Shown here piece after piece: positions 3,340 through 30,900 of a stretch of DNA of 57,978 nucleotides. A program made the position numbers and the translations under genes. The stretch's first letter is position 1. Each line of letters begins with the position of its first letter. Under the pieces are notes generated by a model. That model was not told the origin of the DNA. It was given only the letters and a program-made list of their open reading frames with translations, and ran no database searches. Source of the DNA: a virus; the IMG/VR virus record IMGVR_UViG_3300025832_000009, positions 1 to 57,978 of that record. The stretch is one strand, 5' to 3'.

Positions 3340-4911
3340 TTATTTTCTTTTCATTGTTACTATTGCGTTTGTACTTAGTATTGTTGTGGCTACACTCACT
3401 GCATTCTTCAGCGCGTTCTTAGTAACCTTCGCAGGATCTATAACACCCATCTTATACATGTCCCCATATACCTTATTCTTCACATCGTACCCGTAATTCT
3501 TAGGTACATCTGCGCATGAGCATACTTTATCTCTTATTTCTTTAACATCTTCACCTGCATTTGTAAGAATCTGCTCAATTGGAGCTATAAGCGCCCCATA
3601 TAACACATCACTCGCGTGTCCGTCACCCAAATCTTCCGCACATCTAAGCAGTGCTATACCACCTCCTGGTAATATCCCCTCCTCAATAGCAGAACGTACC
3701 GCACACACAGCGTCTTCTACCCTGTCATACTTCTCTTTCTGCTGAATATCAGAGTTCGCACCAACATATATCACCCCAACCTTACCAGTTAGCAGCGAAA
3801 TACGCTCATCTATGAAATCTCTATCATTTTTATTGGTATTATGCTCCTTCTGAACCTTCAACTCCTCTATCCTAGTCTGAATGTCCTCAGTTCTCTCACC
3901 CTCTTTGATGATAATAGTCTCGTTTTTCCCAACCACAATCTTATCCGCATGGCCTAAGTCCTCCATAGACAACATCCCAATGTTATCCCCTTGTGACTCA
4001 CTGAAGTATTTCGCACCTACAGCCAGTGCAATATCACTCATAAGCTCATTGGTCTTATATCCAAACGATGGTGGTATAATATTACAAAGCTTCAAGTTAT
4101 TCTGCATTACATTCGCAGCCAAAGTATTAGTCACGTTTGATGCGCAATTCCCAATAATTAAAAGCTTCTTGTTCTGGTTTATAATAGGCTTCAGTACACC
4201 CTCAATCTGTAATATGTTCGTTATCTCCATATCAGTCATCAATATGTGAACATCATCCAAGATACACTCGTCATTACGATGATTGTTTATAAACAACTTC
4301 GATGAATACCCCCTGTCAATCTTAATACCCTTCGTAATGTCAATATACGTGTCCTCAGTCTTACTATTCTCAACAGTAAGCTTACCATCTTTACCCAAAT
4401 CACCATAAGCATCGGCAATCATCTTACCCAAATCCTTATCATTGTTCGTAGATATAGTAGCAACATCACGCAAAGTATTCCCAGACACCTTCTTAGAAGA
4501 CTTGTCCAAGCTCTTAATAACATCCTCTGAAATTTTACTGATGTCACGAGCAAGTTGACTCGTATTTATATTCGGCTCACGATCTATCAGTCGCATACCC
4601 TCCCTTATAATAGCCTCAGTTAAAACTATCGCTGTTGTCGTTCCATCACCAGCTGAAGTAGCAGTCCTATCAGAAGCCTCCTTCATCATCTTTACCGCTA
4701 AATTCTCTACAGGATCTTCGAACTCTATCTCCTTGGCAACAGTTACACCATCCTTGGTGATAATCATTCCCCTAGTGTGATTCATAGACTCCATCATCAC
4801 AGTATTACCTAATGGCCCTAATGTGCTTTTTACAGTCTTGGACATCTTAGTAATGCCCTCTAATAATTTTTCTCTCCCCTGCTTGTCAAAATGTAATTCC
4901 TTTGGATTCAT
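3340..4911 (-). CDS. groEL: Phage GroEL-type chaperonin, 523 aa
   Basis: This is a divergent group I chaperonin. The equatorial ATP-site motifs are present: LGPLGNTV (residues 31-38), TKDGVTVAKEIE (52-63), GDGTTTA (88-94), and RVEDAVCAVRSAIEEG with PGGG near residues 400-415, keeping the Asp equivalent to E. coli D398. The C-terminal DPAKVTKNALKNAVSVA is also conserved. It lacks the Gly-Gly-Met tail and ends VTMKRK. Length is close to the 540-aa norm. It reads first in groEL-ORF46-groES, preceded by a TATATTTG box and an AGCAT-box control region. It would fold capsid or other virion proteins. Phage-encoded GroEL is known but uncommon. Confidence 0.95.
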   Translation of the reverse strand: MNPKELHFDKQGREKLLEGITKMSKTVKSTLGPLGNTVMMESMNHTRGMIITKDGVTVAKEIEFEDPVENLAVKMMKEASDRTATSAGDGTTTAIVLTEAIIREGMRLIDREPNINTSQLARDISKISEDVIKSLDKSSKKVSGNTLRDVATISTNNDKDLGKMIADAYGDLGKDGKLTVENSKTEDTYIDITKGIKIDRGYSSKLFINNHRNDECILDDVHILMTDMEITNILQIEGVLKPIINQNKKLLIIGNCASNVTNTLAANVMQNNLKLCNIIPPSFGYKTNELMSDIALAVGAKYFSESQGDNIGMLSMEDLGHADKIVVGKNETIIIKEGERTEDIQTRIEELKVQKEHNTNKNDRDFIDERISLLTGKVGVIYVGANSDIQQKEKYDRVEDAVCAVRSAIEEGILPGGGIALLRCAEDLGDGHASDVLYGALIAPIEQILTNAGEDVKEIRDKVCSCADVPKNYGYDVKNKVYGDMYKMGVIDPAKVTKNALKNAVSVATTILSTNAIVTMKRK

Positions 4912-4946: not shown

Positions 4947-4967
4947 AGCTTTTTTATAGAACCATAA

Positions 4968-4984
4968 AGCATGACGACTATGCT
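4968..4984. promoter_or_regulatory. Inverted repeat AGCAT-N7-ATGCT (operator candidate)
   Basis: AGCAT at 4968-4972 and ATGCT at 4980-4984 form a dyad at the upstream edge of the groEL promoter. The same AGCAT core recurs upstream at 5110-5161 and at the start of the primase-helicase gene. Confidence 0.45.
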
Positions 4985-5017
4985 CACTTTTCGTCTCTAT
5001 ACTCTCTATATAGTTTT
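4979..5017 (-). promoter_or_regulatory. 39-bp element shared with the primase-helicase start
   Basis: Read on the minus strand, this segment begins AAAACTATATAGAGAGTATA and ends AAAAGTGAGCATA. It aligns without gaps to plus-strand 16684-16722 with 34 of 39 positions identical. It lies about 70 nt upstream of groEL. A shared binding site for a phage or host factor is inferred. Confidence 0.6.
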
Positions 5018-5109
5018 TATATATATATATTTTTTATTCCCCTGTAAAAAAGGAAAAAAGAAAGCATTTATAACATATTCTTTATTCATAGTACTTAAGA
5101 AAGGAAAAG

Positions 5110-5161
5110 TAAGCATAAACTAAGCATAAACTAAGCATAGATTTCAAAAGTCAGCATAAAA
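5110..5161 (+). repeat. Tandem 11-bp repeats, TAAGCATAAAC type
   Basis: TAAGCATAAAC occurs at 5110-5120 and 5121-5131, TAAGCATAGAT at 5132-5142, and the related TCAGCATAAAA at 5151-5161. The first three copies are exactly head to tail. The 11-bp period places the AGCATA cores on about one face of the helix. They lie upstream of groEL, in the gap before the terminator of the next gene. Confidence 0.7.
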
Positions 5162-5193
5162 AAAGAGGTAAATACATAAAGTACCTACCTCTT
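5156..5193 (-). terminator. Rho-independent terminator after the 69-aa gene
   Basis: The arms AAGAGGTA (5163-5170) and TACCTCTT (5186-5193) are perfectly complementary. On the minus strand the hairpin is followed by a run of T (complement of 5156-5162). It ends transcription of 5223-5432 before the groEL control region. Confidence 0.75.
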
Positions 5194-5222
5194 GGAAAAC
5201 AAAATTAACTCTGGGAAGAAAG

Positions 5223-5432: not shown

Positions 5433-5450
5433 AACTTTAAATTTAGATTA

Positions 5451-5458
5451 CGAAGATA
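5451..5458 (-). promoter_or_regulatory. Near-consensus -7 box for the 69-aa gene
   Basis: The minus strand reads TATCTTCG, one mismatch from TAnnTTTG, 19 nt ahead of the start at 5432. Confidence 0.4.
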
Positions 5459-5615
5459 CGAAAAAAAAATCATCAGATACTTAGAGGGTTCGGGTAATAA
5501 TATAATATACGCGCGCTGACTCCAATCTGAAGTCGTTTTAAAAATCGCTAGGGGGGTACAATATTTTTGCGTTTTTGTTGAATTTTTTTAGCTTTTTGTA
5601 GGGGCTACATGTACC

Positions 5616-5655
5616 CGTTTGTAAACGTTTGTAGTCGTTTGTTGTCGCTTAAAAT
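5616..5655 (+). repeat. 10-bp iterons, CGTTTGTnnn
   Basis: CGTTTGTAAA, CGTTTGTAGT and CGTTTGTTGT follow one another exactly (5616, 5626, 5636), and a weaker CGCTTAAAAT at 5646 keeps the phase. A period of about one helical turn is typical of protein-loading iterons. They lie upstream of the A/T-rich part of the divergent region. Confidence 0.7.
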
Positions 5656-5942
5656 CCAATGGCCTGGTAAATTACCTTTTTATTTTCTTTGTCTCTTGTC
5701 ATGAGCGAAGAGATAAAACAAGCCTTAAAAAATCCTTATAATTAACATTTTTAATACTTATAACTTTAAACAAATAACCCTAAAAACAAGTAAAAAACAA
5801 ATGTGATCCAATTTTAACGCAAAAAAAACTTTGCTTTTAAACTATTGATATTCAGTAACTTATAAATTATTTTCATTTTATTTTAAAAATAACTTGCATT
5901 TTGTTTTTTATATCCAATAATCCTTTTTACTTTTACACCTCA

Positions 5943-5962
5943 GTTGTGCAATAGTGTACAAC
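5943..5962. promoter_or_regulatory. Dyad ahead of first early gene
   Basis: GTTGTGCA (5943-5950) and TGTACAAC (5955-5962) pair over 8 bp with one G-T, around ATAG. It lies 38 nt upstream of the start at 6000 and could be an operator or an RNA hairpin. Confidence 0.35.
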
Positions 5963-5999
5963 ATTAACCGCCTTATATATAGGCACAAATTTATTTATC

Positions 6000-11936: not shown

Positions 11937-12095
11937 ATGGTAAAAGACCAACTGTTTAAAGTAAAACTCTCTAACTCTAAAGATAGTATCCTGGTTAGGA
12001 CTAGGTATACATTTGACTTACAGGAGGCTAGGAGGTGGAAGAAAGAAGCGCCATATGGTGAGATTATTAACGCTCAAAACAATAAGATACAATGA
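11937..12095 (+). CDS. Small protein upstream of methyltransferase, 52 aa
   Basis: The product begins MVKDQLFKVKLSNSKDSILV and continues with a charged helix (YTFDLQEARRWKKEAPYGEI). It overlaps the methyltransferase start by 4 bp (ATGA), so the two are probably co-translated. Function unknown. Confidence 0.6.
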   Translation: MVKDQLFKVKLSNSKDSILVRTRYTFDLQEARRWKKEAPYGEIINAQNNKIQ

Positions 12096-13132
12096 ATGTA
12101 CTATCATTATTCGATGGCATGTCCTGTGGACAGATAGCCCTCAACAATCTAGGCATTAAAGTAGACAACTACTTTGCCTCTGAGATTGACAAGTATGCTA
12201 TACAAATAGCTAAGAAGAACTACCCTAACATGGTTCATGTTGGAGACGTTACCAAGCTAAGTTACTCTGATTATAGAGGCTGTTTGGTAAGAGAAAAGGA
12301 ATCAAAGTATATAGTTGACATTCCTAACTCAAAACGTATTGACCTTATTATGGGTGGCAGTCCATGCCAGGGGTTTAGTAGGGCAGGCAAGGGACTTGAC
12401 TTTGAAGACCCTAGAAGTAAGCTGTTCTTTGAGTTTGTTAGACTCATAAAAGAATGCAAGCCAAAGTATTTCTTATTGGAGAATGTCAAGATGAACAGCG
12501 ACAGCAGAGATATAATATCTAATTACTTAGGTGTGCAACCTATTTACATAGACTCAGCAGTATTATCTGCACAAACTAGAAAGAGATACTATTGGACTAA
12601 TATACCTTATCTTCTTGATCCTGTTGACCAACGCATAAAACTAAAAGATATCATTCAAACAGAAGGAGAGCTTAAAGGCTCTAAGGTTGATGAGAGGATG
12701 GTAACTAATAAGGGTAAAGCCTATTGCTTAACAGCTAGGTATGCAGGTGCTACTTGGTGGAATAGTATAGAGAGAAGCCAACGCACTATGATAAGGATAG
12801 AAGATAAGGTTTGTTTTCCCGAAGCCACTAAGAAAGGTTATGTTGCAGCAGGTATTGGTGAGGGGATTGACATACAGTATCCTACTAGCACTACTAGAAG
12901 AGGTAGGTTGTTAAAAGATAAAGCCCACTGTCTTCAATCAGCAGAGACGAGTCAGGGAATTATAAATGAGAAATATAATTGGAGGAAGCTCACACCAATA
13001 GAGTGTGAGAGACTGCAAACAGTGCCAGATAATTATACTGAGGGTGTGTCTAATGCACAAAGGTATAAGATGATTGGTAATGGTTGGACAGTCAAAGTAA
13101 TCGAGTATATACTTAAAAACATAAAGATATGA
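12092..13132 (+). CDS. C5-cytosine DNA methyltransferase, 346 aa
   Basis: The enzyme transfers a methyl group from S-adenosylmethionine to C5 of cytosine in DNA. Motif I is LFDGMSCGQIAL (residues 6-17), motif IV with the catalytic Cys is GGSPCQGFSRAGKG (about 88-101), motif VI is LLENVKM, motif VIII is QTRKRYYWTN, and motifs IX-X appear as RKLTPIECERLQTVPDNYT and MIGNGWTVKV. All key residues are present and the length is normal. No cognate restriction enzyme is adjacent, so protection from host restriction or epigenetic control is more likely than a restriction system. It overlaps the genes on both sides by 4 bp. Confidence 0.95.
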   Translation: MNVLSLFDGMSCGQIALNNLGIKVDNYFASEIDKYAIQIAKKNYPNMVHVGDVTKLSYSDYRGCLVREKESKYIVDIPNSKRIDLIMGGSPCQGFSRAGKGLDFEDPRSKLFFEFVRLIKECKPKYFLLENVKMNSDSRDIISNYLGVQPIYIDSAVLSAQTRKRYYWTNIPYLLDPVDQRIKLKDIIQTEGELKGSKVDERMVTNKGKAYCLTARYAGATWWNSIERSQRTMIRIEDKVCFPEATKKGYVAAGIGEGIDIQYPTSTTRRGRLLKDKAHCLQSAETSQGIINEKYNWRKLTPIECERLQTVPDNYTEGVSNAQRYKMIGNGWTVKVIEYILKNIKI

Positions 13133-13809: not shown

Positions 13810-13947
13810 ATGGGAAGATCAAGTGAAGAGTTCATTAAACAAAGAGAGGGAGAGTTGAACTCACTCCCCATTATTCAAGCACCATTTTCTTGGGGCTTTA
13901 TTTCTAACGATACTAATACTGAAAAAAATGAAGAACAGAATATTTAA
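13810..13947 (+). CDS. Small protein, 45 aa
   Basis: The product begins MGRSSEEFIKQREGELNSLP and continues IIQAPFSWGFISND. It is the first gene after a good promoter box and overlaps the next gene by 20 bp. No family recognised. Confidence 0.55.
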   Translation: MGRSSEEFIKQREGELNSLPIIQAPFSWGFISNDTNTEKNEEQNI

Positions 13948-14224
13948 TCTGTATGCCAACTTCGTATGTGAGGAGTGTGGCATTACAAGAGAGGAATTAT
14001 TTTCCAATACCAGAGAGATAAGATTCTCTATTCCAAGGTACATACTGTACTACATATGTACCAAGAGACCAATGAAGATAGTAGACATTAGAAACCTAAT
14101 GAAAAGCAATGGCTTTGATGTTACTAGACAGAACATTGACTATGGTATTGAAAAGATAAACAAGTCTACAGACAAAGATGTGTGGGACTTAATTGAAAAA
14201 TGCATAGAAAAATTTAATGACTAA
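13928..14224 (+). CDS. DnaA domain IV-like protein, 98 aa
   Basis: The helical product contains ITREELFSNTREIRFSIPRY followed by ILYYICTKRPMKIVDIRNLM and VTRQNIDYGIEKINK. The order (an R-x-x-E-I-R-x-x-R-x-I-h-Y helix, then a helix-turn-helix and a short recognition helix) resembles DnaA domain IV, which binds DnaA boxes. The diagnostic DHxT motif is replaced, so this is tentative. A clearer relative is encoded at 23021. Confidence 0.5.
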   Translation: MKNRIFNLYANFVCEECGITREELFSNTREIRFSIPRYILYYICTKRPMKIVDIRNLMKSNGFDVTRQNIDYGIEKINKSTDKDVWDLIEKCIEKFND

Positions 14225-16570: not shown

Positions 16571-16591
16571 TACACTCTAATAGAATAGATT

Positions 16592-16620
16592 AGGGGCTAT
16601 TTGCCCCTTTTCTTTTCTTT
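16592..16620 (+). terminator. Rho-independent terminator after the SSB-like gene
   Basis: AGGGGC (16592-16597) and GCCCCT (16603-16608) enclose TATTT and are followed by a T-rich run to 16620. It separates the recombination operon from the primase-helicase gene. Confidence 0.85.
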
Positions 16621-16683
16621 TATCTATGTTAAGAATGCTTAGTTTTTCCCTTAGATATACAAATTAAAAAAAATAATATTAAT

Positions 16684-16722
16684 AAAACTATATAAAGAGT
16701 ATATAGAAAAAAAGTCAGCATA
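16684..16722 (+). promoter_or_regulatory. 39-bp element shared with the groEL control region
   Basis: This begins AAAACTATATAAAGAGTATA and ends AAAAAGTCAGCATA, running into the start codon at 16722. It matches the minus strand of 4979-5017 at 34 of 39 positions without gaps. The palindrome GCATATGC (16718-16725) covers the ATG, and a reversed CTAAGCAT box lies at 16635-16642. Confidence 0.6.
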
Positions 16723-19151
16723 TGCAACATAACAATGTTACTATATTTAGAAATATAAGGGACACCTCCACTCCCTTCTTCAGAGACTTGAACTCTATCC
16801 TTGAAAGAATAAAGGAAGGTAAGTCAAAAGATTTGATTAAACAGATTAGATCAGAGAAGAACAAAGAGGTTAGGCAAGAACTTAAAAAGAGTTTACCTGC
16901 TATATGTTTTTCAGGAACATTCAATAAGAGAAGTGATGATAGCTTGATTGAGCATAGTGGTTTTATATGTTTGGATTTCGATGGTTATAAAACCAAGAAA
17001 GATATGACATCTGAAAAAGAAAGGCTATCAAAAGATAGATACGTTTACTCTGTATTTGTATCGCCTAGCGGTAATGGTCTAAAAGCTATTGTTAAGATAC
17101 CTAAAGAACCAGAGAACCATAAGAACTATTTCATATCACTAGAAAGATATTTTAATTCTGATTACTTTGATAAGACTAGTAAGAATATATCAAGAGTTTG
17201 CTATGAGTCGTATGACCCATTAGTTCATGTAAACGAAAACTCAAACACCTGGACTAAGATAGAGGAGCAGGAGTACAAGGTTGTAGATAAGTATTCATCT
17301 AGGCCTACGATACCTGTCACTAATGAGAAAAAGATAGTGGATATACTTATGAAGTGGTGGACTAAGAAGTATGGTATAGTTGATGGCGAGAGAAACAATA
17401 ACGTATACATATTGGCTGCGGCCTTTAATGACTACGGAGTTACTAAGTCACTAACAGAATATATCATGTCTCAGTTTCAGAGTAGTGATTTTACAATGAA
17501 TGAAATACAGACCACTATAAACTCTGCATACTCACAAACTCAAAACCATGGCTCTAAGTATTATGAGGATGAGGATAAGGTTAATCAGGTTAGGGTTAAA
17601 TTAAAACGAGGAGTATCAAAAAAAGAAATTCGTCTTCAATTAGTTGAGTCAGGTATTGAAGATGCTATAGCGGTTTCTACTATAAGATCAATAGAAGAAG
17701 AAGATAATGACAAAAGGTTTTGGACCAAGAGCGATAAGGGTGTTATAACACTAATACATTATTTGTTTAGGCAGTTTCTTGAGGACAATGGATTCTGGAA
17801 GTATTCTCCTGAAGGTACTAAGAGTTTTATATTTGTTAAAGTAACCAACTACAAAATAGACCATACTACTGAGGAAGAAATCAAGGACTTTGTGTTAGGG
17901 CATTTGGAAAAACTTGATGATATGTCTATCTATAATTACTTTGCAGATAAGACAAGGTACTTTAAGGAAGAGTTCTTGTCCCTGTTAGGAACTGTTAATG
18001 TTTACTTTATTGAAGACGATAAGAATACAGCATACCTGTATTATAATAACTGCGCTGTAAAGGTCACGAAGAATAGCAAGACCACGATAGACTACCTAGA
18101 CTTGGGTGGATATGTTTGGAAGGACCAGGTTATAGATAGAGACTTTGAGTTGTGTGAGTCACACGAATGTGATTACAAAACATTCGTATCAAACGTAGCA
18201 GGATCTGATAAGAAAACTATTAAGTCAATGGAGAGTACGATAGGCTATATGCTTCATGCTTATAAGAATCTATCTTACTGCCCTGCTGTTATATTGAATG
18301 ATGAGATTATATCAGACAATCCAGAGGGTGGTACAGGTAAGGGTTTATTTATCAATGCCATATCCAAGATGAAGAAGTTGGTAGTTATTGATGGTAAAGG
18401 TTTTAATTTTGAGAAGAGTTTTGCCTACCAGTTGGTTAGTGCAGATACTCAGATACTTTGTTTTGATGATGTCAAGAAACATTTTGACTTTGAAAGATTG
18501 TTTAGTGTTGTTACCGAGGGGTTAACACTAGAGAAGAAGAACAAGGATGCAATCAAGATACCATTCCATAAGTCACCAAAGGTTGCTATAACAACTAACT
18601 ATGCGATTAAGGGTAAGGGTAATTCATTTGAGAGAAGAAAGTGGGAGTTAGAGTTTAAGCAATTCTATACAAAAGAATTTACTCCATTGGTAGAATTTCA
18701 AAAGCTTTTATTTTCTGACTGGAATGAAGATGAGTGGTGTGCATTTGATAACTATATGATAGAGAACCTTATGTACTATCTTAATCATGGATTAGTTAAA
18801 TCTGAATTCAAGAACCTATCTATTAGAAAACTATCTGCTGCTACCTCACATGAGTTCATTGAGTTCTGTGGATTGATACTAGGAAGCAATCCAAATGAGT
18901 TACTTAGAATGAATGAAAAGATATACACTAAAGATTTGTTTACAGAATTTATAAGTGAGAATCAGGATTATGCGCCAAGGGCTAAAAGAAGTATTTCTAA
19001 CATTGCTTTTAATAAATGGCTAAAAGACTATGGAGAGTTTAGGAAAGATGTAGTTAATGTAGTTCTAGACAGAGACTTAAACGGTAAGTTTATTATTTAC
19101 TCAACAAAGAAAACTAACCCAAAACAAAAAGAAGATGAGTTTGAATTCTGA
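16722..19151 (+). CDS. VirE-N primase and helicase fusion, 809 aa
   Basis: Residues 1-180 resemble the VirE N-terminal/BT4734 domain related to archaeo-eukaryotic primases: VTIFRNIRDTSTPFFRDLNS at the start, ICLDFDGY with the DxD metal site, and SPSGNGLKAIVKIP. A middle helical linker follows (190-400). The C-terminal half holds a helicase core: Walker A NPEGGTGKGLFINAI (about 530), Walker B ILCFDDVK (about 585) and a sensor region VAITTNYAIKGKGNS. It would prime and unwind phage DNA. No polymerase is found nearby, so host polymerase is probably used. The start sits on the shared AGCATA element. Confidence 0.85.
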   Translation: MQHNNVTIFRNIRDTSTPFFRDLNSILERIKEGKSKDLIKQIRSEKNKEVRQELKKSLPAICFSGTFNKRSDDSLIEHSGFICLDFDGYKTKKDMTSEKERLSKDRYVYSVFVSPSGNGLKAIVKIPKEPENHKNYFISLERYFNSDYFDKTSKNISRVCYESYDPLVHVNENSNTWTKIEEQEYKVVDKYSSRPTIPVTNEKKIVDILMKWWTKKYGIVDGERNNNVYILAAAFNDYGVTKSLTEYIMSQFQSSDFTMNEIQTTINSAYSQTQNHGSKYYEDEDKVNQVRVKLKRGVSKKEIRLQLVESGIEDAIAVSTIRSIEEEDNDKRFWTKSDKGVITLIHYLFRQFLEDNGFWKYSPEGTKSFIFVKVTNYKIDHTTEEEIKDFVLGHLEKLDDMSIYNYFADKTRYFKEEFLSLLGTVNVYFIEDDKNTAYLYYNNCAVKVTKNSKTTIDYLDLGGYVWKDQVIDRDFELCESHECDYKTFVSNVAGSDKKTIKSMESTIGYMLHAYKNLSYCPAVILNDEIISDNPEGGTGKGLFINAISKMKKLVVIDGKGFNFEKSFAYQLVSADTQILCFDDVKKHFDFERLFSVVTEGLTLEKKNKDAIKIPFHKSPKVAITTNYAIKGKGNSFERRKWELEFKQFYTKEFTPLVEFQKLLFSDWNEDEWCAFDNYMIENLMYYLNHGLVKSEFKNLSIRKLSAATSHEFIEFCGLILGSNPNELLRMNEKIYTKDLFTEFISENQDYAPRAKRSISNIAFNKWLKDYGEFRKDVVNVVLDRDLNGKFIIYSTKKTNPKQKEDEFEF

Positions 19152-22741: not shown

Positions 22742-23024
22742 GTTTGAATTGGATGAAAACTTCCTATATCAAATACACACATTTAACCCTAGTGTAAAGA
22801 ATAAGATAGCAGCGCAAATAGATACCTTAATAGGTCTGCCTACAACAAAGGGTTTAGACAAGTTAAAGTCTGGAGTAGTACACGATAAAGATGGAACACC
22901 AACTTTCTTTACTCTTTCCTATTCCAAAAGAAATAAGAACTCACCATCTATACTGTTAGATATATTTGAAATAACACTAGACCAATACCTAAACGATATT
23001 AATTTAAACATTCATATAAAATGA
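22710..23024 (+). CDS. Hypothetical protein, 104 aa
   Basis: Acidic N-terminus (EQKYIEDEFELDENFLYQIH) followed by a basic core and a hydrophobic end (ILLDIFEITLDQYLND). It overlaps the VRR-NUC gene and the DnaA-like gene. No family recognised. Confidence 0.6.
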   Translation: MESEQKYIEDEFELDENFLYQIHTFNPSVKNKIAAQIDTLIGLPTTKGLDKLKSGVVHDKDGTPTFFTLSYSKRNKNSPSILLDIFEITLDQYLNDINLNIHIK

Positions 23025-23425
23025 AATTCGAATCATCACCTGAAATCAAATTAAAAAATAAAGTAGAAGCCGAGTCAATTAAGGTATTAATTGAACAAGA
23101 AATGGAAATTGAAAATATATTTAAAAACACTAGAAGACGAGAGTATGTGGACGCAAGAAGAATACTATTCTACATTCTTAGAAACAACTTTCTTCTAACC
23201 TATTTTGAAATAGGAAGGATTTCTAAAAGAGATCACGCAACTATTATACATGCAATTAAAGATTTTGATTATATAATTAAGGCTGACCCAATATTAAATG
23301 GTGTATATCAAAAAGCGCTAGAAAGAGCTGAGTTTATTACAACGTACTCTCCAGAGGCAAGAAAAGAAGAGATAATCAAAAAGATAGAACAGCTTAACGA
23401 AGAGTTACTTACTTTATCTAATTAA
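23021..23425 (+). CDS. DnaA domain IV-like protein, 134 aa
   Basis: Residues about 45-85 match the C-terminal DNA-binding domain of DnaA: YVDARRILFYILRNNFLLTY then FEIGRISKRDHATIIHAIKD, with the R-DH-x-T-I-x-HA signature that reads DnaA boxes. The AAA+ ATPase part is absent. A coiled, charged C-terminus follows (ARKEEIIKKIEQLNEELLTL). It may bind the phage origin or interfere with host DnaA. It overlaps the upstream gene by 4 bp. Confidence 0.8.
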   Translation: MKFESSPEIKLKNKVEAESIKVLIEQEMEIENIFKNTRRREYVDARRILFYILRNNFLLTYFEIGRISKRDHATIIHAIKDFDYIIKADPILNGVYQKALERAEFITTYSPEARKEEIIKKIEQLNEELLTLSN

Positions 23426-27900: not shown

Positions 27901-30900
27901 TTTTTAATATCAAAAGGCTTACTTACTTTAAGTTCCCCCTTAGATGGTTTCTTAGTTGGTGTAAGACCATTACTAATTTCAGATGCTTTTTCTAAATATG
28001 TATCAATATCGTTTACATTGCTTGGATTTACTTGAGTAAATTTCTTTGCAGCGTCAGACAGTCCAGCTTCTTTACCTTTTAATTTATTCTTAATAGATTT
28101 TTGAAGTTTTTTAGCCTTATCTAGCTTATTAGAATACTCAGCATCATTCATTGCTCTTGTAGTAAAATCTATTACGTCTTGAACTTTCTTGGCGTTATAT
28201 AAATTTACATTAGAAACTTTTTTAAGTAATGAGTTTGCTTTTTTAGTTGTAATATTACCTGCTTTCAGAACTAAATCTATAGCCCCCTGTAATCCTTTTC
28301 TTCTTTTGTTTACATCGTTTTTAGCATTTCTAGCAACCCTAGCTTCCTTCTGAAGATCTTTCTTCATTGCCGAATAGTCGCTCTTTACTTTAATAGTCTT
28401 AGGCTTTCCTTTTATTTTTGTAGAGGCTATTATAGATTTATAAGTATTAGCTGTTACTGTCTGACTGTTTGTCTTTCCTATAGCATCTACTTCAGCTTTA
28501 ACTGCTCCTTCAGATTTAGCGTACAAGTCTATTTCTGCATTTGAAAATTCCGTATCACCCCTAGCTATTTTTAAAGCTAAGGCTCTTTCTTTAGATTGTG
28601 TTTTGGGTTGTTGTTTTTTCTTTTGAGCAACCGCATTATCTATTGCTTCTTTATTTTCTGCGTAAAACTGAATAGCATCTTCAGAAAAAGATTCTTGATT
28701 TCCTCCTTCAACAATACGATTTGCAAATGACTCTATTTTATTGTTCACACTCATATCTCCCTCTGTTGAGGTAGGTTCTGTTAACTGTTCAACATCTGTC
28801 TGCGTAGTCGTGTCGCTAGGCTTATCGGTTTGCGTTTCACCTTCTTCGATTTGCGTGTCGGTAGTGACTTGCTCAACGTCTCCTTCTCCCACTTGTTGCA
28901 ATTCCACTTCGGAGTCTTTCCCTCCTTCTGTGCTTGTTGGAGCATCTGGTAGCACTTGCTCCTCTGTGCTTGGCTTTGAAATGGCATCTTTTCCTTTTTT
29001 AATTAATACTGGCAACTCTACATCAATAGTGTATGTTTTTTTTCCTCTCTTAGTTCCTTGTCTTTTTATTTTTACCTCAATACCTGGATAAGCTTTTTTT
29101 ATTTTTTCAACTTCAGCTTCAGCTTTAGCTTTATCATCAGTCTTAAAAGGATCATAAGCAGCTTGACCTTTCTCTTCTACAGATTGTTTTGTTGCATCAC
29201 TATATTTTGTGGTATTAGTAACAACGTTACCATCGGCATCGGTCTCTACATCTAAATTAGATTTATTGAAAGTCCTAAGTCCACCCTCAGAAATAGTAGT
29301 CGTTTCAACAACTCTTGCGCCATCAGGTAATGTAGCATCAGCAGATGTAATCATATTCTTAAACGCACCACCTGTAGACTCCATTTTTGCTGAAAACTTA
29401 TTTGTTGGCCTTCCGTTTTCATAAACCCTAACATATCCGACAAAGTTTTCTTTGTTTTTAGAAGTTATAATAACATCTAAAATACCTGTCTCTGGATTTA
29501 CATAAGTTGCTGTTGATACCCCTTCTTTATCAAGACTTGTAACGTTTGATATGTTTGCTTCTCCTTTAGGATTAGAGGGAGTTACTAACCTTTTGTCTGT
29601 ATGATATTCTCTAAGTCGGTCTTTTGGAACTTGCTTTTCTGTGCTTGGCTTTGAAATGGCATCTTCTTTTTGTTTTGTTAATTCTTCTTGAACTTGTAAT
29701 TCGTCTTTTTTATATAGAGCATCTAGTTGCTGGTCAACAGCCGCTATCTGTTTATCAATTCTAGCTTTACCTGGGCCTTCTAGTCCCTGTTTTTTGTTTA
29801 TTAAATTCTGTCTTTGAGTTAATAAATCAGATGCAGGTTGTAAGTTTTCAGAAACTTTTATAGTCCCTTGAGTTTTTAACTCAGCTGACTGCATATTGTA
29901 AATTTCTGTATATGCATTTGAAGCCTCTTTTTCAGTCAAAGAACCTTCTTTAACTAAAACATCTAATGTAGATTGTAAATCTTTAACATTTGCTGCTGCA
30001 AGCCTAACTAAGTTAGACCTTCTATTTCCTGACAATAAATTTTTAGCACCCAAACCAGAGGTAGCTCCTACGGTCATTACTACAGTTTCCATTATACCTG
30101 CCTTTGTAATTTTGTCACTTAAAACTTCGTTTCCAATATGTCTATTCACCAAATGGTTTATACCCTTTTCAGAAAAATAAACTGGAAGCTCTTCTATAAA
30201 AAGTTCTTTAGCGTTTTCTTTTAACAAACCCTTGCCCTTATCTACAAGTTGTTTTACTGTGAATTTTTTACCTTCTTTTAATGCTAGGTTTTTAATCTGG
30301 TCTTTAATTCCTGTAAAACCTGTTAGTAATTTTTGATTACCACCTGCTAATCCAGAGAATATACCATCTAAAGTAGATATTGCCTGACCTGCATTAACAG
30401 CTATATTCATAGCTTCTTTTTCAGACATACCTGAAGCTACTAGCTGAGACCTTACGTCCTCCACGTTCCCTGTAATACCACTTGCAAAAGAAGTAATTCC
30501 CATTCCTAGACCAGCTCCTTTAGGGCCTTTAAATCCTAGTTTCTTTGTTACTTTTCCTGATGTTCTAATTAAGCCGTATAAGTGTACAAGCATGCCTACT
30601 CCTCCTTGAGTTACAGATCCTGCTGTCCAATTAGTTACAGTCTCTGTAACATCTTTAGATAGTGTTTGTATTTCTTTTATTTTTTCAGGAGAAATAATCC
30701 CATCCATTCTTATGTTCGTATTTGCATCATATACTGTTCCATTTTCATCAACAATATATTGTTTACCCATACTTAAAACTGGCTTTCCGTCTAAAAAAGC
30801 AGATCTTTTTACTGCGCCAGTTGTGATATCAAGAGTCTCCTTACTTTGGGTAAACATTTCTTCAAGGCTTTTTAAAACACCTTTATTATCAAATTTATCA

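Follow-up and report, generated by a model that had tools for sequence, protein, structure and literature searches.

Two 39-bp elements that match each other across 11.7 kb of a viral genome, one in the groEL control region and the other at the start of the primase-helicase gene, belong to a longer module of helically phased sites around an AT-rich core, which recurs in related phages. We consider it somewhat better than an even bet (a probability of roughly 0.55) that the two elements are parts of a two-copy, iteron-type phage replication origin read by phage proteins resembling DnaA domain IV. The window, by which we refer to the whole 57,978-nt stretch analyzed, is the viral record IMGVR_UViG_3300025832_000009 of IMG/VR, for which we infer a Bacteroidetes host from TAnnTTTG promoters and flavobacterial phage relatives. 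If correct, this reading identifies a candidate origin, together with the proteins likely to bind it, in uncultured phages that form a widespread group, probably infecting Bacteroidetes, and for which we found no origin described; it would place the box-reading domain of DnaA at work without its ATPase, with a bearing on how origins open, and it would explain why chaperonin and primase have a control-like sequence in common. The open-access literature on phage-encoded DnaA, on Bac_DnaA_C in phages and on groEL/primase podoviruses contains no description of the module that we could find.

Architecture and stability of the module

The analysis concerns the following features of the window:

3340-4911 (minus): groEL, an ORF of 523 aa; 20 related records have homologues of about 55-79% identity
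4939-4946 (minus): -7 box TATATTTG, of host type, in the promoter of groEL and immediately downstream of the module
4959-5207 (minus): groEL-side module, arrays and AT-rich core, located with an nhmmer profile of relatives
4979-5017 (minus): 39-bp element, groEL copy, with AT-rich segment CTATATAGAGAGTATAG and terminal site GAGCAT
5062-5076 (plus): 9-bp-spaced pair AAGCAT/TAACAT, sites at 5062 and 5071
5111-5157 (plus): site array, AAGCAT at 5111, 5122 and 5133 (11-bp spacing) and CAGCAT at 5152
13928-14224 (plus): protein A, 98 aa, stand-alone DnaA domain IV-like candidate site reader (profile, AlphaFold2, Foldseek)
16625-16735 (plus): primase-side module, AT-rich core flanked by inverted site pairs
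16626-16640 (minus): inverted 9-bp-spaced pair AAGCAT/TAACAT, sites at 16626 and 16635
16684-16722 (plus): 39-bp element, primase copy
16716-16730 (plus): 9-bp-spaced pair, CAGCAT at 16716-16721 and CAACAT at 16725-16730
16722-19151 (plus): primase-helicase, with Pfam domains BT4734-like_N, PriCT_1 and DUF5906
23021-23425 (plus): protein B, 134 aa, DnaA domain IV-like alternative candidate reader (Bac_DnaA_C, E 5.7e-12)

Recomputation confirmed the ungapped match claimed by an earlier note on this DNA between minus-strand 4979-5017 and plus-strand 16684-16722 (34 of 39 positions identical), and the elements are non-coding, as the note had it, except for base 16722, which is the A in the primase start codon ATG. 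When all 39-mer pairs in the window were compared in both orientations, just three reached at least 33 matches; the remaining two, at 28952/29627 (36 matches) and 56268/57822 (34 matches), are direct repeats in leftward coding DNA. Both non-coding regions are AT-rich, and shuffling had been put forward as a check on whether composition accounts for the similarity. With dinucleotides preserved, the best ungapped 39-mer score per trial ranged from 22 to 29 of 39 over 3000 shuffles of the two regions, versus 34 for the real sequences, and the module is conserved in dozens of contigs. Chance similarity is thus ruled out by shuffles and relatives alike, and the probability that either chance or A/T richness explains the match is negligible. 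Short words shared within a genome by its groEL and primase regions also exceed permutation for 7-mers (p 0.004) and, weakly, for 8-mers (p 0.05).

The 39-mer does not hold up as a unit in its own right, constituting instead one AT-rich edge of a module that spans approximately 4959-5207 and 16625-16735. The AGCATA box in which it had been said to terminate is indeed present, but as one instance of a repeated site, with four more copies at 5111-5157 (plus), and the description of an unusual operator running into the primase ATG was incomplete, in that the site pair extends further, into primase codons 2-3. The pair at 5062-5076 (plus) occupies the position of the pair AATCGACATAATCGACAT in relatives.

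Sites are of the AGCAT type in the window and read CGACAT, CAACAT, TGACAT or GAGCAT among relatives, and the build common to these phages consists of tandem sites, an AT-rich stretch (often holding CTATATATATAG or GAGAGTATAG in relatives) and then more sites facing the other way. An unbiased k-mer count is led by ATCGAC, CGACAT, TCGACA and TGACAT, with CAACAT and TATATA further down the leading list. The sites are helically phased, combining 9-bp pairs with 11-bp arrays: same-strand RRCAT spacing yields 8 pairs at 9 bp and 9 at 11 bp at groEL, where about 0.2 are expected, and 14 and 5 pairs, respectively, at primase, where about 0.1 are expected. Their consensus is roughly ATYRRCAT, and they resemble the DnaA box TTATCCACA. 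Host DnaA boxes were discarded as the repeated element, TTAT(C/A)CACA occurring just 0-3 times per genome.

In many relatives, a near-palindrome of the type ACTGATTATCAGT, often beside GTTAGTTA, separates the 9-bp pair from the 11-bp array and may be a site for another factor; examples lie upstream of groEL in L104, L096 and L103 and near 4472 in G028, and the window version is degenerate. The near-palindrome CTATATA...TATATAG, present in several copies, and the 11-bp iteron arrays would fit a centromere or packaging-type nucleoprotein site with parC-like iterons, or a hairpin promoter for a virion RNA polymerase. We judge this highly improbable, given that G029, G031, G036, G025 and MW202828 have a broken palindrome or none while keeping the arrays, that a non-exhaustive scan of window proteins recognized no partition protein, and that the module has no Rfam match. 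Loss of the palindrome in relatives also led us to reject a hairpin or cruciform as the essential feature, and the lack of an Rfam match to reject an RNA family.

Duplex stability was computed genome-wide from nearest-neighbour energies in 15 genomes. The least stable 30-bp stretch falls within a module in nine of them (8/15 at 50 bp, 6/15 at 80 bp), with modules representing 0.76% of the DNA compared, counts that do not stem from independent samples, the related genomes being fragments akin to one another. The window’s least stable 30-bp stretch starts at 5007, inside the groEL-side 39-mer, and with 50-bp stretches its second least stable region is the segment at 16655. The low stability of the module is supportive of an origin but short of decisive, because AT richness is general in non-coding DNA. 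The sign of the GC skew switches around 5-6 kb, coinciding with the change in gene direction, and the skew is uninformative on the origin since it tracks gene direction and carries no separate replication signal.

Beyond the groEL-side module, the intergenic region 5433-5999 between the diverging operons also contains CGTTTGT three to four times, spaced at 10 bp (TGTACCCGTTTGTAAACGTTTGTAGTCGTTTGTTGTCGC; 5610-5642, plus); a search of 15 related genomes did not find the CGTTTGT pair pattern.

Conservation and gene context in related phages

Relatives were gathered through a primase scan that returned 80 loci, with groEL also found in 20 of their 40 records. A module profile trained on groEL-side modules and one standalone copy recovers primase-side copies absent from its training set (for example, 4.7e-11 in MW202828, 3.4e-16 in L080, 3.5e-16 in L083 and 9.3e-20 in G022). 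The groEL-side module of the window is detected by nhmmer at E 9e-25 when the window is part of the model; with the profile rebuilt without it, the two best window matches are 4988-5216, on the groEL side (E 1.5e-8), and 16624-16731, on the primase side (E 0.0063), versus a best E of 0.29 in five shuffled windows.

Across relatives the module measures about 100-250 bp and lies upstream of groEL and, mostly, of primase too. The earlier note had named absence of the similarity from both loci in relatives as evidence against it; it is kept at both. At most two modules are found per genome, and none at other operons such as those of structural genes. Orientation towards groEL is constant, and either direction occurs at primase, where the module is reversed in MW202828, L037, L039, L078, L080 and L083. 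G028, G030 and G040 contain one module each, in non-coding DNA about 1-3 kb from groEL and away from both genes; in G028 the standalone module still precedes a small leftward gene that has a host-type promoter.

The exact 19-mer ATCGACATAATCGACATAA was scanned against 2.9 million viral contigs (IMG/VR) with the reversed pattern as control, matching 28 stretches versus 5. The profile detects the module in 26 of the 28 stretches (E ≤1e-14), mostly adjoining groEL, and a Bac_DnaA_C protein is encoded in 17 of the 28 records versus none of the five controls, a small comparison among related contigs. Elemovirus phages, which are primase relatives, gave no significant module match and have no such repeats and no DnaA annotation in the regions read.

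A purely transcriptional role has to be taken seriously as a rival, given that the groEL promoter usually borders the module and that a terminator-like sequence precedes the primase copy. Under this explanation, proteins A and/or B would be transcription factors with DnaA-IV helix-turn-helix folds, and the module an operator or activator switching the groEL and primase operons together, with no role as an origin. Most phages have the module immediately upstream of groEL and of the TAnnTTTG promoter belonging to it (in 20 of 22, TAnnTTTG is no more than 120 bp from the groEL start), and the constant orientation of the module towards groEL is that of an operator. Directly before the primase module lies an apparent intrinsic terminator (AGGGGCTATTTGCCCCTTTTCTTTTC, 16590-16620), so that the primase operon would need a new promoter, and no host-type one is seen after it. 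Set against these points are the limit of two modules per genome with none at other operons, the occurrence of both orientations at primase, the modules removed from groEL in G028, G030 and G040, and a core stability so low that it exceeds the needs of an operator. On balance we regard control without any origin role as rather unlikely, serious as it is. The earlier proposal of one common factor or paired origin/regulatory sites is compatible with this evidence, and its origin half is the better supported, since several phages have the module some 0.4-3 kb away from groEL, its orientation towards primase is variable, and the host-type promoter found at groEL is hardly seen at primase (1 of 29 phages) and hence is not a feature of both loci.

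Candidate site-reading proteins

Protein A on its own matches Bac_DnaA_C weakly (27 bits, with a cut-off of 31.5), 26 of the 27 members of its family match this domain, and DnaA chains are the only PDB matches of the family profile. In a Foldseek search with its AlphaFold2 model (pLDDT 94.6), the top eight matches are all DnaA (probability 1.00, with modest E-values of 0.005 to 0.2), and the next, unrelated match has a probability of 0.18; the model aligns to 1j1v with TM 0.79/0.82 and matches 3pvp with probability 1.00. Protein A is accordingly modelled, and predicted, to have the DnaA domain IV fold. The DnaA signature (D/N)HxTV is missing from its recognition helix, which reads TRQNI at this point in the window and ARTGV, TYENV, THSNI and others in relatives. 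Protein B scores 45.9 bits for Bac_DnaA_C, above the Pfam cut-off, and its signature, RDHATIIH, contains the DnaA-like DHATI. By Pfam, both possess only the C-terminal domain and lack the AAA+ ATPase domain, and another protein would consequently be needed for melting and loading.

At least one Bac_DnaA_C-type protein is encoded in 39 of 40 related records, and GenBank MW202828.1 labels its protein A ‘dnaA’ and a second gene, positioned like B, ‘chromosomal replication initiation protein’. The recognition helix of A varies as the site core varies, with no simple residue-to-base code discernible by eye; B is more general and its helix hardly changes. A second module at primase occurs in 15 of 17 records with A and in none of three without (Fisher p 0.009, from a hand tally with relatedness uncontrolled). 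The presence of A was dropped as a simple predictor of the module, as A is not detected in G028, G030 and G040 though each keeps one.

The sites might instead be read by the primase-helicase itself, with A and B acting elsewhere. Satellite phage P4 offers a precedent, its two separated iteron regions, ori and crr, being bound by the alpha primase-helicase; the phages studied here likewise combine two separated iteron regions with a primase-helicase, one copy abuts the primase gene, and related phages encode primase. We nonetheless consider this explanation improbable: unlike P4, these genomes encode separate small proteins whose predicted fold is the one with which DnaA reads its boxes, the sites themselves are DnaA-box-like, and Pfam recognizes no origin-binding domain in the primase-helicase.

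Proposed origin function and known systems

The two-copy iteron origin that we favor is suggested by the conjunction of phased DnaA-box-like sites, very unstable DNA, a copy at the primase-helicase gene and phage DnaA-IV proteins. In its proposed operation, DnaA-box-like sites in 9-bp pairs and 11-bp arrays surround an AT-rich, easily melted segment; the stand-alone DnaA domain IV-like proteins (A and/or B) would bind the arrays and, through the strain this creates, open the AT-rich segment, where the primase-helicase, whose gene lies at one module copy, would be loaded. Binding, melting, helicase loading and regulation by the module are steps that we infer. The groEL copy is placed near the divergence of the leftward and rightward operons, with its terminal sites coming close to the host-type promoter of groEL, for which reason binding probably also tunes groEL. 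By analogy, origin and transcriptional roles can coexist in a single module, as in phage lambda, the opening of whose origin depends on transcription nearby (PMC5043065).

More tentatively, we put forward a split initiator, in which an ATPase-free, stand-alone DnaA domain IV, present as two paralogues, would open two DnaA-box-like origins for the primase-helicase; one of these origins would double as the chaperonin control region, coupling replication to groEL expression. This extension is possible, and we hold it with clearly less confidence than the origin reading as such.

Bacillus phage SPP1 has two origins, oriL and oriR, separated by about 13 kb, which contain repeats and an AT-rich DNA unwinding element (DUE) and are bound by a single phage protein, gp38 or G38P (PMC6316719). 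The window resembles it in having two similarly built putative origins, here 11.7 kb apart, with direct repeats and an AT-rich segment, one of them within a replication gene; here too, a phage-encoded protein would bind them. The likeness is one of build; the candidate reader here is DnaA domain IV-like, and host and helicase-primase type differ. Lambda ori with its O protein, and iteron plasmids, also place iterons beside an AT-rich opening segment (PMC5043065), but lambda employs 19-bp inverted-repeat iterons for an O dimer, whereas the units considered here are short, advance in 9- and 11-bp steps and lie on both sides of the AT core. With bacterial oriC and DnaA the module has in common boxes resembling TTATCCACA, an unstable AT-rich segment and, by prediction, the DnaA domain IV fold of its readers; it differs in its altered box core (CGACAT, AGCAT), and the phage proteins differ from bacterial DnaA in being devoid of the AAA+ domain and, for A, of the DnaA signature.

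A further gene of the early operon, at 12092-13132, encodes a C5 cytosine DNA methyltransferase; its residues 80-135 additionally match a PHROG whose annotation is DNA primase.
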